Positions 11,516-54,317 of a DNA stretch of 60,224 nucleotides are shown here, piece after piece. The stretch is from an uncultured Pelagibacteraceae bacterium. GTDB taxonomy: Bacteria; Pseudomonadota; Alphaproteobacteria; Pelagibacterales; Pelagibacteraceae. The notes below the pieces were generated by a model, which ran no database searches, had not been told where the DNA came from, and worked only from the letters and a program-made list of their open reading frames with translations. Made by a program: the position numbers and the translations under genes. Position 1 is the stretch's first letter; each line of letters begins with the position of its first letter. The DNA lies in assembly GCA_902573865.1 (NCBI GenBank), contig CACGLI010000003.1:1-60224 (forward strand). Reading direction: 5' to 3'.

Positions 11516-12765
11516 TTTTTTTTTAGTATTTCGCCAGCTCCGTAAAGACTCCCAAAACATACAATTAGTTTTCTTTTTTTAGACGATACTTTGTTAAGAG
11601 CCTCTTCAAAATTTTTCACTTTTTCATAATTTAAACTATTTTTTATCGCAGACTTAATCAATATATCTGCAGGTAGAGAAGCTGGCTCATTTTTAATAGT
11701 TGTAATAAAAATTTTTTCAAAGATTCCATTAAATTGTTTAATAAACTCGTCAGGATCTTTATTTTTCGTCATAGACCAAATACCGAATATTGGAATGTTA
11801 AATTTTTTAATAAAATCGTATAAGTTTTTTGCACCAATTACTGAATGACAACCATCAACTAAAATTCTTTCATTCTTATATAATCTTTTTTTAATTTTTC
11901 CTTCTTTTAAAATTTGAACTCTTGCTTCAAACTTTATTTTAGGTATAGTTTTTTGGATTAGGTTTTTGTTGACATTTAAATCTAGAGCTATCTGAATAGC
12001 TTGACAAAGATTTTCTAGAAGCCCTTTTGACTGGATATTATTTGACCTAATTTTAATTTTATTAAATTTATCAACATAAAAATAATCTTTTTTAATCTTT
12101 TTTAACTTCCATGAGGAATAAGCATGCTTACTTGGATTTTTATTCAAAATTTTTTTTATTTTTCTTAAAACTTTTATTTTTTGTTTACCTATGTATATAT
12201 TGGTAAATTTACTTAAATAACCAATTTTTTGATTTATTATTTCATCCAAAGTTTTTTTCTTTAAAAAATTCAAGTGTTGTTTGTTTATATTTACTATTGC
12301 CTGTGCCCTTGGAAAAGAGAACACATTAGTGGAGTCCTTGGCAAATAAAGCTCCGGCTTCTACTAAATTAAAATCACTATTACTTTTTGCAGCGTTGATA
12401 ATAAAAATTAGAGTTAATGCTTCAAATACTGTCAATTTTGTATCAGTATTTTTTATAATCCTCATTGATTTTTTTATATCATTGTAGCTTAAATGTTTAT
12501 CTCCAAGGAAAAATCTTTCCCTTATATCTTTTATGCTTGGAGATATATATGTCGATACTGAATAATTGTTTGCTTGTAAAAAGTATTTTAATGATGTCAA
12601 TAAGGAATACTTTCCATCGCTTCCTATAATATTAATAACATTTCTTAACTGATTTTCAGGATGACCCAGTTTACTCAAGGCGTGTTTAATGCGTTTAAGA
12701 TCAAAATTTATTTTCCTAGAAAAATTTTTAGCTAGCTGATTGTAAAGATCTATCGACTGTGACAT
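11512..12765 (-). CDS. folC: Folylpolyglutamate / dihydrofolate synthase, divergent P-loop
   Basis: 417 aa Mur-ligase-like enzyme that adds glutamate to dihydropteroate/folates. The layout (P-loop ~46-54, central domain, C-terminal glutamate-ligase domain with ILVDGCHSVIGAKNL) and the accD-folC order fit FolC. The P-loop, usually GTNGKGS, reads GSDGKYS (48-54): the Lys is kept but the second Gly is Tyr. HNP/DGAHN is DGCHS. Start overlaps the end of accD by 38 nt. Assignment rests partly on synteny. Confidence 0.8.
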   Translation of the reverse strand: MSQSIDLYNQLAKNFSRKINFDLKRIKHALSKLGHPENQLRNVINIIGSDGKYSLLTSLKYFLQANNYSVSTYISPSIKDIRERFFLGDKHLSYNDIKKSMRIIKNTDTKLTVFEALTLIFIINAAKSNSDFNLVEAGALFAKDSTNVFSFPRAQAIVNINKQHLNFLKKKTLDEIINQKIGYLSKFTNIYIGKQKIKVLRKIKKILNKNPSKHAYSSWKLKKIKKDYFYVDKFNKIKIRSNNIQSKGLLENLCQAIQIALDLNVNKNLIQKTIPKIKFEARVQILKEGKIKKRLYKNERILVDGCHSVIGAKNLYDFIKKFNIPIFGIWSMTKNKDPDEFIKQFNGIFEKIFITTIKNEPASLPADILIKSAIKNSLNYEKVKNFEEALNKVSSKKRKLIVCFGSLYGAGEILKKN

Positions 12766-13645
12766 TAGACTCGTTTTTAGCTTGAGTCTCTTCTTTTTTC
12801 AATAAAACACTTATCAAAGTTCCTACAGTAGAATTAAGGTATTTTCTTTCAACAATTAAATCTATCCCACCATGATCTTTTACATATTCAGCTGTTTGAA
12901 ATTCATCAGGAAGTGTCTCCCTAACAGTATCTTGAATGACTCTTCTGCCTGCAAACCCGATTACAGCTTTCGGTTCGGAGATTAAAATATCTCCTAACAT
13001 TGCCCACGAAGCTGTTACCCCACCAGTTGTAGGGTTTGTTAATACTACAATGTAAGGTAAATTTTTTTTCTTTAATTCATTAACTGCTAGAGTTGTTCTT
13101 GACATTTGCATAAGTGCAATTGATGACTCCATCATTCTCTGTCCTCCGCTACAGCTGAAAAAGATGAATGGTGTTTTATTATCTATTGCGTGCTGAACTC
13201 CCGCTATAAAAGCTTCACCCGATGCTGCACCAAACGAACCACCAATGAATCTAAAATCTTGTGCTCCTACAGTTACTTTCATTTGATTGATTTTCCCTGA
13301 AGCTATTAGTATTGCATCATCTTGATTAGTTAATTTTCTAGCAGATTTTAATCTTTCGGTATATTTTTTACTGTCGGTCCAATTTAAAGGATCATCGCTA
13401 GGTAGAGGTGTCTGAATAAGTTCATAATATCCATTGTCAAAGAATAATTCAAATCTTTCTTTACATGTTAGTTTGTGATGAGAACCACACTTTGGACAGC
13501 AATTATAATTAGTTTTAAGGTCCTCTTTATAAACTAAGTTCTTACATTTACACGTTGTCCATAAGGAGTCTTCTCCAGGAGCAGATGATTTTTTTTTAAA
13601 TAATGACTTTATCTTTGGTTTTATAAATTTTGTAATCCAGTTCAA
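12728..13645 (-). CDS. accD: Acetyl-CoA carboxylase carboxyltransferase subunit beta
   Basis: 305 aa. N-terminal zinc ribbon with Cys at 32, 34, 49/50 and 53; the first pair is CxC rather than CxxC. The crotonase-like carboxyltransferase core follows (GSFGAASGEAF, FFSCSGGQRMMES, TNPTTGGVTASWAMLGD). Works with AccA (52563-53657) to transfer CO2 from biotin to acetyl-CoA in fatty-acid synthesis. The TTG start overlaps the trpA stop (TTGA) and gives the typical MNW start. Confidence 0.93.
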   Translation of the reverse strand: MNWITKFIKPKIKSLFKKKSSAPGEDSLWTTCKCKNLVYKEDLKTNYNCCPKCGSHHKLTCKERFELFFDNGYYELIQTPLPSDDPLNWTDSKKYTERLKSARKLTNQDDAILIASGKINQMKVTVGAQDFRFIGGSFGAASGEAFIAGVQHAIDNKTPFIFFSCSGGQRMMESSIALMQMSRTTLAVNELKKKNLPYIVVLTNPTTGGVTASWAMLGDILISEPKAVIGFAGRRVIQDTVRETLPDEFQTAEYVKDHGGIDLIVERKYLNSTVGTLISVLLKKEETQAKNESNVTVDRSLQSAS

Positions 13646-47611: not shown

Positions 47612-47617
47612 AATTTC

Positions 47618-47707
47618 GAGGTTGGCATCAGGTGGATGTTTCATAAACCCGGTCAGGTCTGAAAAGAAGCAGCCGTAGTGATAATTATTCAGGTTGTTGC
47701 CTGCCTC
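47618..47707 (+). ncRNA. ffs: Signal recognition particle RNA (small, 4.5S type)
   Basis: The universal SRP core is present: GGTCAGGTCTGAAAAGAAGC followed by AGCC, with a GAAA-like tetraloop and both asymmetric-loop strands. GAGGTTGGCA at the 5' end pairs with TGCCTGCCTC at the 3' end to close the rod. About 90 nt, the small bacterial form that binds Ffh. A T-run of three follows, and dnaX starts 7 nt later. Confidence 0.93.
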
Positions 47708-47713
47708 TTTATA

Positions 47714-52562: not shown

Positions 52563-53657
52563 ATGAAAAACTACTTAGAATTTGAAAAAGAGATAAAAAG
52601 TTTAGAAGAAGATTTAGACACTTTAAAAAGTCCATTTGGTTCTGGCGGTCTCTCTCAGGTAGACACTGAAAAAATTAAGAATTTACAAAATGAGATAAAC
52701 GAAAAATTAGAAAACACTTATAGTAATCTTAATAGCTGGCAAAAAACTCTTGTGGCAAGGCACGAAGATAGACCAAGAGCTAATTATTATATCAAGAATA
52801 TTTTTGATAGTTTTACTCAGTTATCCGGAGACCGATTATTTGGAGACGATAAATCAGTTATAGCTGGATTTGGATTAATTGATAAAAAATCTGTTTTAGT
52901 TATTGGTCAGGAAAAAGGCGAAGATTTGAATAGTAGAATTGAAAGAAATTTTGGAATGATGAGACCTGAAGGTTATAGGAAGTGTGTTAGGTTGATGCAA
53001 CTTGCTAGCAGATTTAAGATCCCTGTCATTACTTTTGTAGATACACCGGGAGCATACCCAGGTCTTGGTGCTGAGCAAAGAGGGCAAGCTTCAGCTATTG
53101 CTCATTCAATTGAGTGCTGTATGTCACTTAAAGTTCCAAACATATCTGTCATCATTGGAGAGGGTGGATCTGGTGGTGCGATTGCTCTGGCATCGTCGAA
53201 TAAAGTTATTATGTTAGAGAATTCAATTTATTCGGTTATCTCACCTGAAGGATGTGCTTCCATTCTTTGGAGAGACCCGGGTAAATCACTTCAAGCAGCA
53301 GAAGCTATGAAACTTACAGCAAAAGATCTTTTATCTCTTGGGATAATTGATGAAATTATAGACGAGCCTGTTGGAGGAGCACATAGAGATCATGTAGTGG
53401 TTTCACAAAACATTAAGGCCTCATTAATAAAAAATCTAAATTTCTTTGCAAACATGTCTGGGGCTGAGATTTATGACCATAGAAAAACTAAATTCCTCAA
53501 AATCGGTAGAGAGAAAGGGTTCACAAGCACAACTGTTTCTGAATTAGGATACAAGGAGACTAATTTTATTAAAATTCAAAGAAATGTGAACAAATTTAAA
53601 TTTATTTATATTGCAGCTGCAGTTTTAATTATTGCTGCATTTTATAATTTTTTCTAA
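52563..53657 (+). CDS. accA: Acetyl-CoA carboxylase carboxyltransferase subunit alpha, with membrane tail
   Basis: 364 aa, ~45 longer than usual. The N-terminal helices and carboxyltransferase core are canonical (RPRANYYI, FVDTPGAYPGLGAEQRGQ, GEGGSGGAIALA, YSVISPEGCASILWRD). After the normal C-terminal KFLKIGR (R316) there is a 48-residue extension ending in an 18-residue hydrophobic stretch (347-364, FIYIAAAVLIIAAFYNFF) that looks like a tail anchor. Partner AccD is at 12728-13645. Confidence 0.93.
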   Translation: MKNYLEFEKEIKSLEEDLDTLKSPFGSGGLSQVDTEKIKNLQNEINEKLENTYSNLNSWQKTLVARHEDRPRANYYIKNIFDSFTQLSGDRLFGDDKSVIAGFGLIDKKSVLVIGQEKGEDLNSRIERNFGMMRPEGYRKCVRLMQLASRFKIPVITFVDTPGAYPGLGAEQRGQASAIAHSIECCMSLKVPNISVIIGEGGSGGAIALASSNKVIMLENSIYSVISPEGCASILWRDPGKSLQAAEAMKLTAKDLLSLGIIDEIIDEPVGGAHRDHVVVSQNIKASLIKNLNFFANMSGAEIYDHRKTKFLKIGREKGFTSTTVSELGYKETNFIKIQRNVNKFKFIYIAAAVLIIAAFYNFF

Positions 53658-54240: not shown

Positions 54241-54317
54241 GCAGCAGTAGCTCAGTTGGTTAGAGCACTAGTTTGTGGAACTAGGGGTCGGTGGTTCGAA
54301 TCCACCCTGCTGTACCA
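54241..54317 (+). tRNA. tRNA-His (GTG)
   Basis: 77 nt with encoded CCA. Acceptor GCAGCAG/CTGCTGT (pair 1-72 is G-U), D-arm GCTC...GAGC, anticodon loop TTGTGGA in a 5-bp stem (anticodon GTG), T-arm GGTGG-TTCGAAT-CCACC. Position -1 is T and the discriminator is A73, so the near-universal G-1:C73 pair is missing. hisS starts 4 nt after CCA. Confidence 0.95.

Follow-up and report, generated by a model that had tools for sequence, protein, structure and literature searches.

The stretch of DNA that was analysed, called the window in what follows (60,224 nucleotides), carries on its forward strand accA, a gene for the carboxyltransferase subunit alpha of acetyl-CoA carboxylase (ACC) with a C-terminal extension (52563..53657, stop codon included, 364 residues). 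The PF03255 (ACCA) profile was spanned in full by residues 4-315 of the product (9.5e-131, 436 bits, cut-off 23), residues 1-317 matched NF004344 with 430.9 bits (cut-off 357) and the score against TIGR00513 was 378.4 bits (cut-off 319.3). An AlphaFold model made with 38 aligned sequences (mean pLDDT 86.1) placed the canonical last helix at residues 300-319. The closest solved structures were carboxyltransferase alpha subunits of S. aureus and E. coli, and the Foldseek matches included 2f9y_A and 5kdr_A in addition to the top match, E. coli AccA 8uz2_A (TM-score 0.79 for query and 0.91 for target, 311 columns). As judged from family models and the predicted carboxyltransferase fold, the open reading frame is a complete AccA. 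Since the canonical end lies near residue 316 (residues 1-316, 52563..53510, + strand), the remaining 48 residues (317-364) are extra, and the first rank of E. coli AccA over 311 columns places them outside the known fold. The sequence-only reading had described a 48-residue extension finishing in 18 hydrophobic residues, a description borne out by the ends of the PF03255 and NF004344 matches and by hydrophobicity.

The extension is composed of a linker of about 30 residues (317-346, 53511..53600, + strand), delimited by the AlphaFold model and by counts of flanking charges over 152 distinct tails, and a predicted transmembrane tail of 18 residues that reaches the C-terminus (347-364, 53601..53654, + strand), indicated by hydrophobicity, a predicted helix and the pattern of substitution. 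Within the model, a linker block at residues 321-330 (pLDDT 50) was followed by a short helix with Lys and Arg residues (334-344) and by a tail helix at 346-363, the blocks of which had pLDDT values of 87, 95 and 92. Residues 347-364 are hydrophobic except for one Asn and two Tyr, and the best 19-residue mean Kyte-Doolittle value, 1.91, was obtained for a window flush with the C-terminus, no 19-residue window elsewhere in the protein reaching 1.65. This tail is weak for its group, as only 4 of 130 members of the order fell below 1.91. On an insertion scale applied without positional weights, the summed value was about -0.6 for the tail of the window AccA as compared with a median of -3.3, and slightly above zero for 2 of the 152 distinct tails.

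Conservation of the tail was evident from a survey of 140 genomes of Pelagibacterales (SAR11), 130 of which gave an AccA match and had the C-terminus of the protein read. The sequence-only reading had taken absence of the tail from close relatives as the sign of a lost stop codon; a tail of 44-55 residues with a hydrophobic end was found in all 130 genomes with a match, while the 10 genomes without an AccA match at the thresholds used had listed completeness values of 57-95%. Over all tails read, lengths ranged from 43 to 56 residues with 0-6 residues after the hydrophobic span, and their best 19-residue hydrophobicity ranged from 1.65 to 3.54 (median 2.49). In a second, named collection, the tail was seen at 35 of 35 SAR11 loci (one cut by a contig end) and the AccAs of 45 loci from outside SAR11 extended only 0-10 residues past the core, both counts being among the 80 matches listed of at least 592 relatives; this collection partly repeats genomes of the order survey, so that the two tail counts are not independent. 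The lowest tail, that of relative L113 (1.65), fell under core windows of three other AccAs (1.68-1.73). Given these core windows and the weak tail of the window AccA, a hydrophobicity threshold alone is not decisive. The tail is an order-wide character of SAR11 in the genomes read.

Outside the order, 96 AccA loci, all from Pseudomonadota and selected in part because a long open frame might conceal a tail, were read to the stop codon (L059-L086, L159-L186 and L295-L334). These represent 94 distinct genes, as one locus repeated another (L325 and L062) and the C-terminus of a further one (L169) was not read clearly, and no hydrophobic tail was found at any of these 94 C-termini from Pseudomonadota. 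All stopped 0-13 residues past the core except for two with hydrophilic extensions of 33-36 residues. Broader surveys gave AccA matches in 178 of 191 genomes of the class (2 of the 178 from Pelagibacterales) and 283 of 299 genomes of the phylum (1 of the 283 from Pelagibacterales), where the other matches outside the order, among those listed, were judged by open-frame length only. Thus, in the samples read, the tail is confined to Pelagibacterales. The two hydrophilic extensions belong to loci L081 (genome G190) and L307 (genome G404), and one of them is very rich in Arg and Lys. An AccA fragment 79% identical to the window AccA lies at the end of a 4.3-kb contig classed as viral (L267, IMGVR_UViG_3300039180_000861) and was the one viral copy of AccA among 246 pattern-matching stretches; this contig is probably a misfiled fragment of SAR11.

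The composition of the tails and the way in which they vary both bear on their likely surroundings. Among the 152 distinct tails, the 17-residue cores contained 8 Asp, Glu, Lys or Arg in 2584 residues, and the 12 residues preceding the cores contained 566 Lys or Arg versus 77 Asp or Glu of 1824. By the positive-inside rule, an inner flank rich in Lys and Arg points to an N-in topology, with the N-terminal domain of AccA in the cytoplasm. Comparisons of 233 pairs from 81 of the 130 genomes, limited to regions of equal length and to core pS values of 0.08-0.5, gave omega values of 0.082 for the last 95 core residues, 0.234 for the linker and 0.486 for the hydrophobic segment, figures which are descriptive as pairs share genomes. 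Charged or strongly polar residues and proline (Asp, Glu, Lys, Arg, Asn, Gln, His, Pro) were rarely exchanged within the hydrophobic segment of the same pairs: one of them stood before or after the change in only 18 of 1330 residue changes, as compared with the 22% of nonsynonymous single steps that would reach one if taken at random from those codons. Hydrophobicity is thus kept while the sequence drifts, which is the pattern predicted for contact with lipid.

These results also bear on the origin of the tail from a lost stop codon or a sequencing artefact, that is, from chance read-through in an AT-rich genome. Read-through past the stop codon produced an extension of at least 43 residues with such a segment for 5 of 224 open reading frames (at least 200 residues; window and 35 SAR11 loci), and a one-off tail of this kind is therefore an event of about 2%. 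Although single read-throughs can mimic such tails, a lost stop codon in the window accA was ruled out by the presence of the tail in every order genome with an AccA match and, in the overlapping named collection, at every SAR11 locus among the matches listed, together with the constraint on hydrophobicity, and this explanation retains almost no credibility. Proteins with a hydrophobic segment at the C-terminal tail alone were limited to 31 AccAs among 237 open reading frames of at least 150 residues (window and 35 SAR11 loci), a set that draws repeatedly on neighbours of accA. The other 5 of the 36 AccAs in this set were accounted for by contig ends (two) and by core windows of 1.68-1.73 at the loose threshold of 1.65 (three).

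In a tree of AccA cores from 47 selected rows (20 tailed and 27 untailed), tailed AccAs formed two groups, the main SAR11 family (15 rows, support 100/99) and family f2 (5 rows, 100/100), and the best tree required two changes for the tailed rows. The main family was adjoined, with support of 95/78, by an AccA without a tail (L061) from genome G250, which has 1.2 Mb and belongs to another order; this lineage is useful for dating the tail. Forcing all tailed rows together cost 7.6 log-likelihood units (p-AU 0.080), by which one origin was not rejected. No similarity was detectable between the linkers of the main family and f2, which do not align; this lack of linker homology and the failure of the AccA cores to group in the best tree are the reasons for considering two gains. 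These comparisons are compatible with two gains, with one gain plus replacement of the gene, and with a single origin.

Partner subunits were compared for an anchor of their own. AccD and AccB were matched in 11 of 11 SAR11 genomes, over the curated cut-off in 1 for AccD and 5 for AccB, and no hydrophobic anchor span was seen in either protein from these genomes, the best 19-residue windows being 1.30 and 0.88, respectively, with one AccD (L272) scored from about residue 40 onwards. The AccD of the window itself (L270) and that of another locus (L274), both scored from before their starts, had best windows of 1.10 and 1.19. An anchor on AccD or AccB was rejected on these grounds, which cover the 11 genomes with the L272 protein from the same residue onwards. 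The accD gene of the window (12728-13645, - strand, TTG start) lies between open reading frames that by eye resemble trpA and folC, and its product continues beyond the conserved part for about 20 hydrophilic residues; soluble ends were also present on the other main-family SAR11 AccDs compared but missing in three f2 AccDs. A homologue of the E. coli membrane protein YhcB was likewise rejected as the anchor in SAR11, since PF06295 scored over its cut-off in none of 78 SAR11 genomes (1 of 14 control genomes was positive) and the weak matches in 45 of the 78 (E 0.0036 to 1, best 17.3 bits), which were scattered over frames of many different lengths, were regarded as noise.

Membrane attachment of AccA or its homologue is described in two other systems. 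In the portions of PMC7712654 available, plant alpha-CT is reported to be held firmly at the inner envelope of the chloroplast in spite of having no predicted transmembrane domain, CTI proteins serving to dock alpha-CT and this docking attenuating fatty-acid synthesis in light. Plant alpha-CT (IEP96) with CTI thus resembles the arrangement proposed for SAR11 in that the AccA homologue is the ACC subunit docked at an inner membrane by way of a non-catalytic C-terminal extension, but differs in that this extension is predicted in plants to be a large coiled coil and the anchor is the separate CTI, whereas the putative SAR11 anchor lies within AccA (PMC7712654, as excerpted). Docking of the CTI type, compared by description from the same excerpts, does not match the SAR11 tail of 43-56 residues with its hydrophobic end, the plant bait having covered residues 420-769 (PMC7712654). 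The accessible text of PMC12977641 reports that crosslinks form between YhcB and AccA as cells pass into stationary phase, that YhcB appears to sequester AccA, which is also degraded in E. coli, and that YhcB-AccA binding goes with lower fatty-acid synthesis. Here the likeness to the arrangement proposed for SAR11 lies in an AccA bound at the inner membrane by a protein with a transmembrane domain, and the difference in a partner that is separate, growth-phase dependent and apparently inhibitory, and of which SAR11 has no counterpart over the PF06295 cut-off in the 78 genomes (PMC12977641, same text). The AccA of E. coli (8uxz_A, 316 residues) also differs in having no tail. LapD is the same protein as YhcB. 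Suppressors of lapD lpxM lethality map to accA, accC and accD, according to the part of PMC12652820 available.

The catalytic part of the SAR11 protein is shared entirely with the canonical AccAs of E. coli (2f9y, 8uz2) and Alphaproteobacteria, whereas the C-termini read outside the order lack a hydrophobic tail and, in all but the two cases noted above, end near the core. In its C-terminal part, the protein resembles DjlC and Flk (PMC6794478, in part) and TssL (PMC3426401, in part), bacterial proteins with a C-tail anchor in which a cytoplasmic N-terminal domain is followed by a terminal hydrophobic segment; the position of the SAR11 span at the extreme C-terminus agrees with this arrangement. 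In contrast, the C-tail-anchored proteins named in the available text of PMC6794478 include no core fatty-acid enzyme, and the word carboxylase does not occur in that text. Model tail-anchored proteins in E. coli do not strictly depend on SecYEG or YidC for insertion, and SRP is required by those with the highest hydrophobicity (PMC6794478, same portions). Among the papers listed by searches of the open-licence literature of PubMed Central, no earlier report of an AccA that bears a transmembrane tail of its own was found. In the accessible parts of a paper on iron limitation in Candidatus P. ubique, accB is mentioned and accA is not, and a word search of the available text of a 2024 paper on Tat-integrated tail-anchored proteins gave no mention of AccA or SAR11. 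AccA is thus a recurring docking subunit, and in the SAR11 variant the putative anchor is built in.

The hydrophobicity, predicted helix, flanking charges and substitution pattern described above all fit a transmembrane tail, in support of the membrane anchor that was suggested by the sequence-only reading. Taken together with the structural model, they make it quite probable that SAR11 AccA is a C-tail-anchored inner-membrane protein that holds carboxyltransferase at the membrane. In such an arrangement, the catalytic domain would fold in the cytoplasm and pair with soluble AccD, and the single C-terminal helix would insert after translation with the N-terminus inside. Linker and helix together would keep AccA on the cytoplasmic face of the inner membrane, about 30 linker residues giving the catalytic part reach, and the soluble biotin half (AccB) would visit the membrane-held AccA-AccD. 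The carboxyltransferase of E. coli and S. aureus is an alpha2-beta2 assembly, and if that of SAR11 is likewise alpha2-beta2, each complex would have two anchors. The likely use is that malonyl-CoA would be made at the membrane, close to the enzymes by which acyl chains are converted to phospholipids, and that the complex would be open to membrane-based regulation. Docking of the kind performed by CTI in plants or YhcB in E. coli would here be covalent and constitutive. Insertion, topology, the presence of two anchors per complex and any effect on flux are all inferred. The placing of fatty-acid initiation at the membrane, as suggested by the sequence-only reading, is only one possible consequence. 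By analogy, the tail could act as a brake on fatty-acid synthesis as well as a help, since binding goes with reduced synthesis in both the CTI and YhcB precedents, which fits poorly with a simple role in efficiency.

Two other roles for the hydrophobic helix were weighed against membrane anchoring. ACC is a multi-subunit enzyme, and the helix might serve to assemble a soluble complex by packing against another protein such as AccD, AccB/AccC or a further copy of AccA, a reading with which the AlphaFold result is compatible in that the helix, although confident, was predicted blind to its surroundings. A buried interface usually fixes side chains, whereas this segment drifts (omega 0.486 versus 0.082 for the core) with the 18 of 1330 changes noted above, and variation in tail length from 43 to 56 residues with Lys and Arg crowded on one flank is better suited to lipid; packing is accordingly considered improbable. 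The tail might alternatively mark AccA for breakdown by FtsH or another membrane protease, as a C-terminal degradation signal through which the abundance of AccA is set, E. coli AccA being a protein that is degraded. Known hydrophobic C-terminal degrons are short, however, while a full span of 17-19 residues is kept in SAR11 together with its charged flank, and in E. coli degradation acts on an AccA that lacks a tail of this kind (8uxz_A, 316 residues). As the sole explanation a degradation signal is very unlikely, but it is compatible with anchoring and may be a second function of the tail.

SAR11 ranks among the most abundant bacteria of the sea and has small, streamlined genomes, so that some 50 residues added to a core enzyme throughout the order are unlikely to lack a function. 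A wider proposal, that in SAR11 the committed step of fatty-acid synthesis has been transferred for good to the inner membrane through fusion to AccA of a docking function which plants and E. coli provide in trans, perhaps twice, is put forward tentatively and has rather less than an even chance of being correct. With the SAR11 tail counted by its sequence, AccA is tied to membranes in three unrelated settings, the others being plastid CTI and E. coli YhcB, and these three links suggest that lipid synthesis may in general be controlled through the location of ACC. As the SAR11 anchor appears to be one short segment that can be removed or swapped, it offers a clean test of the effect of membrane docking on fatty-acid flux.

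Other features of the window were noted in passing. A search for the promoter word TATAAT was uninformative, with 111 matches versus 108 expected. A small SRP RNA (RF00169, 53.7 bits) is located at 47617-47711 (+ strand) directly before a dnaX-like open reading frame, and a tRNA at 54241-54314 (+ strand) before a hisS-like one; the starts listed for the two open reading frames, GTG at 47678 and TTG at 54256, would lie inside the RNAs and are therefore probably placed too early. Between 28332 and 40291, a run of genes resembles phoR, pstS, pstC, pstA, pstB, phoU, phoB, ppk and ppx, names given by eye from the sequence, and on the same basis it is an apparent phosphate-starvation and polyphosphate cluster.
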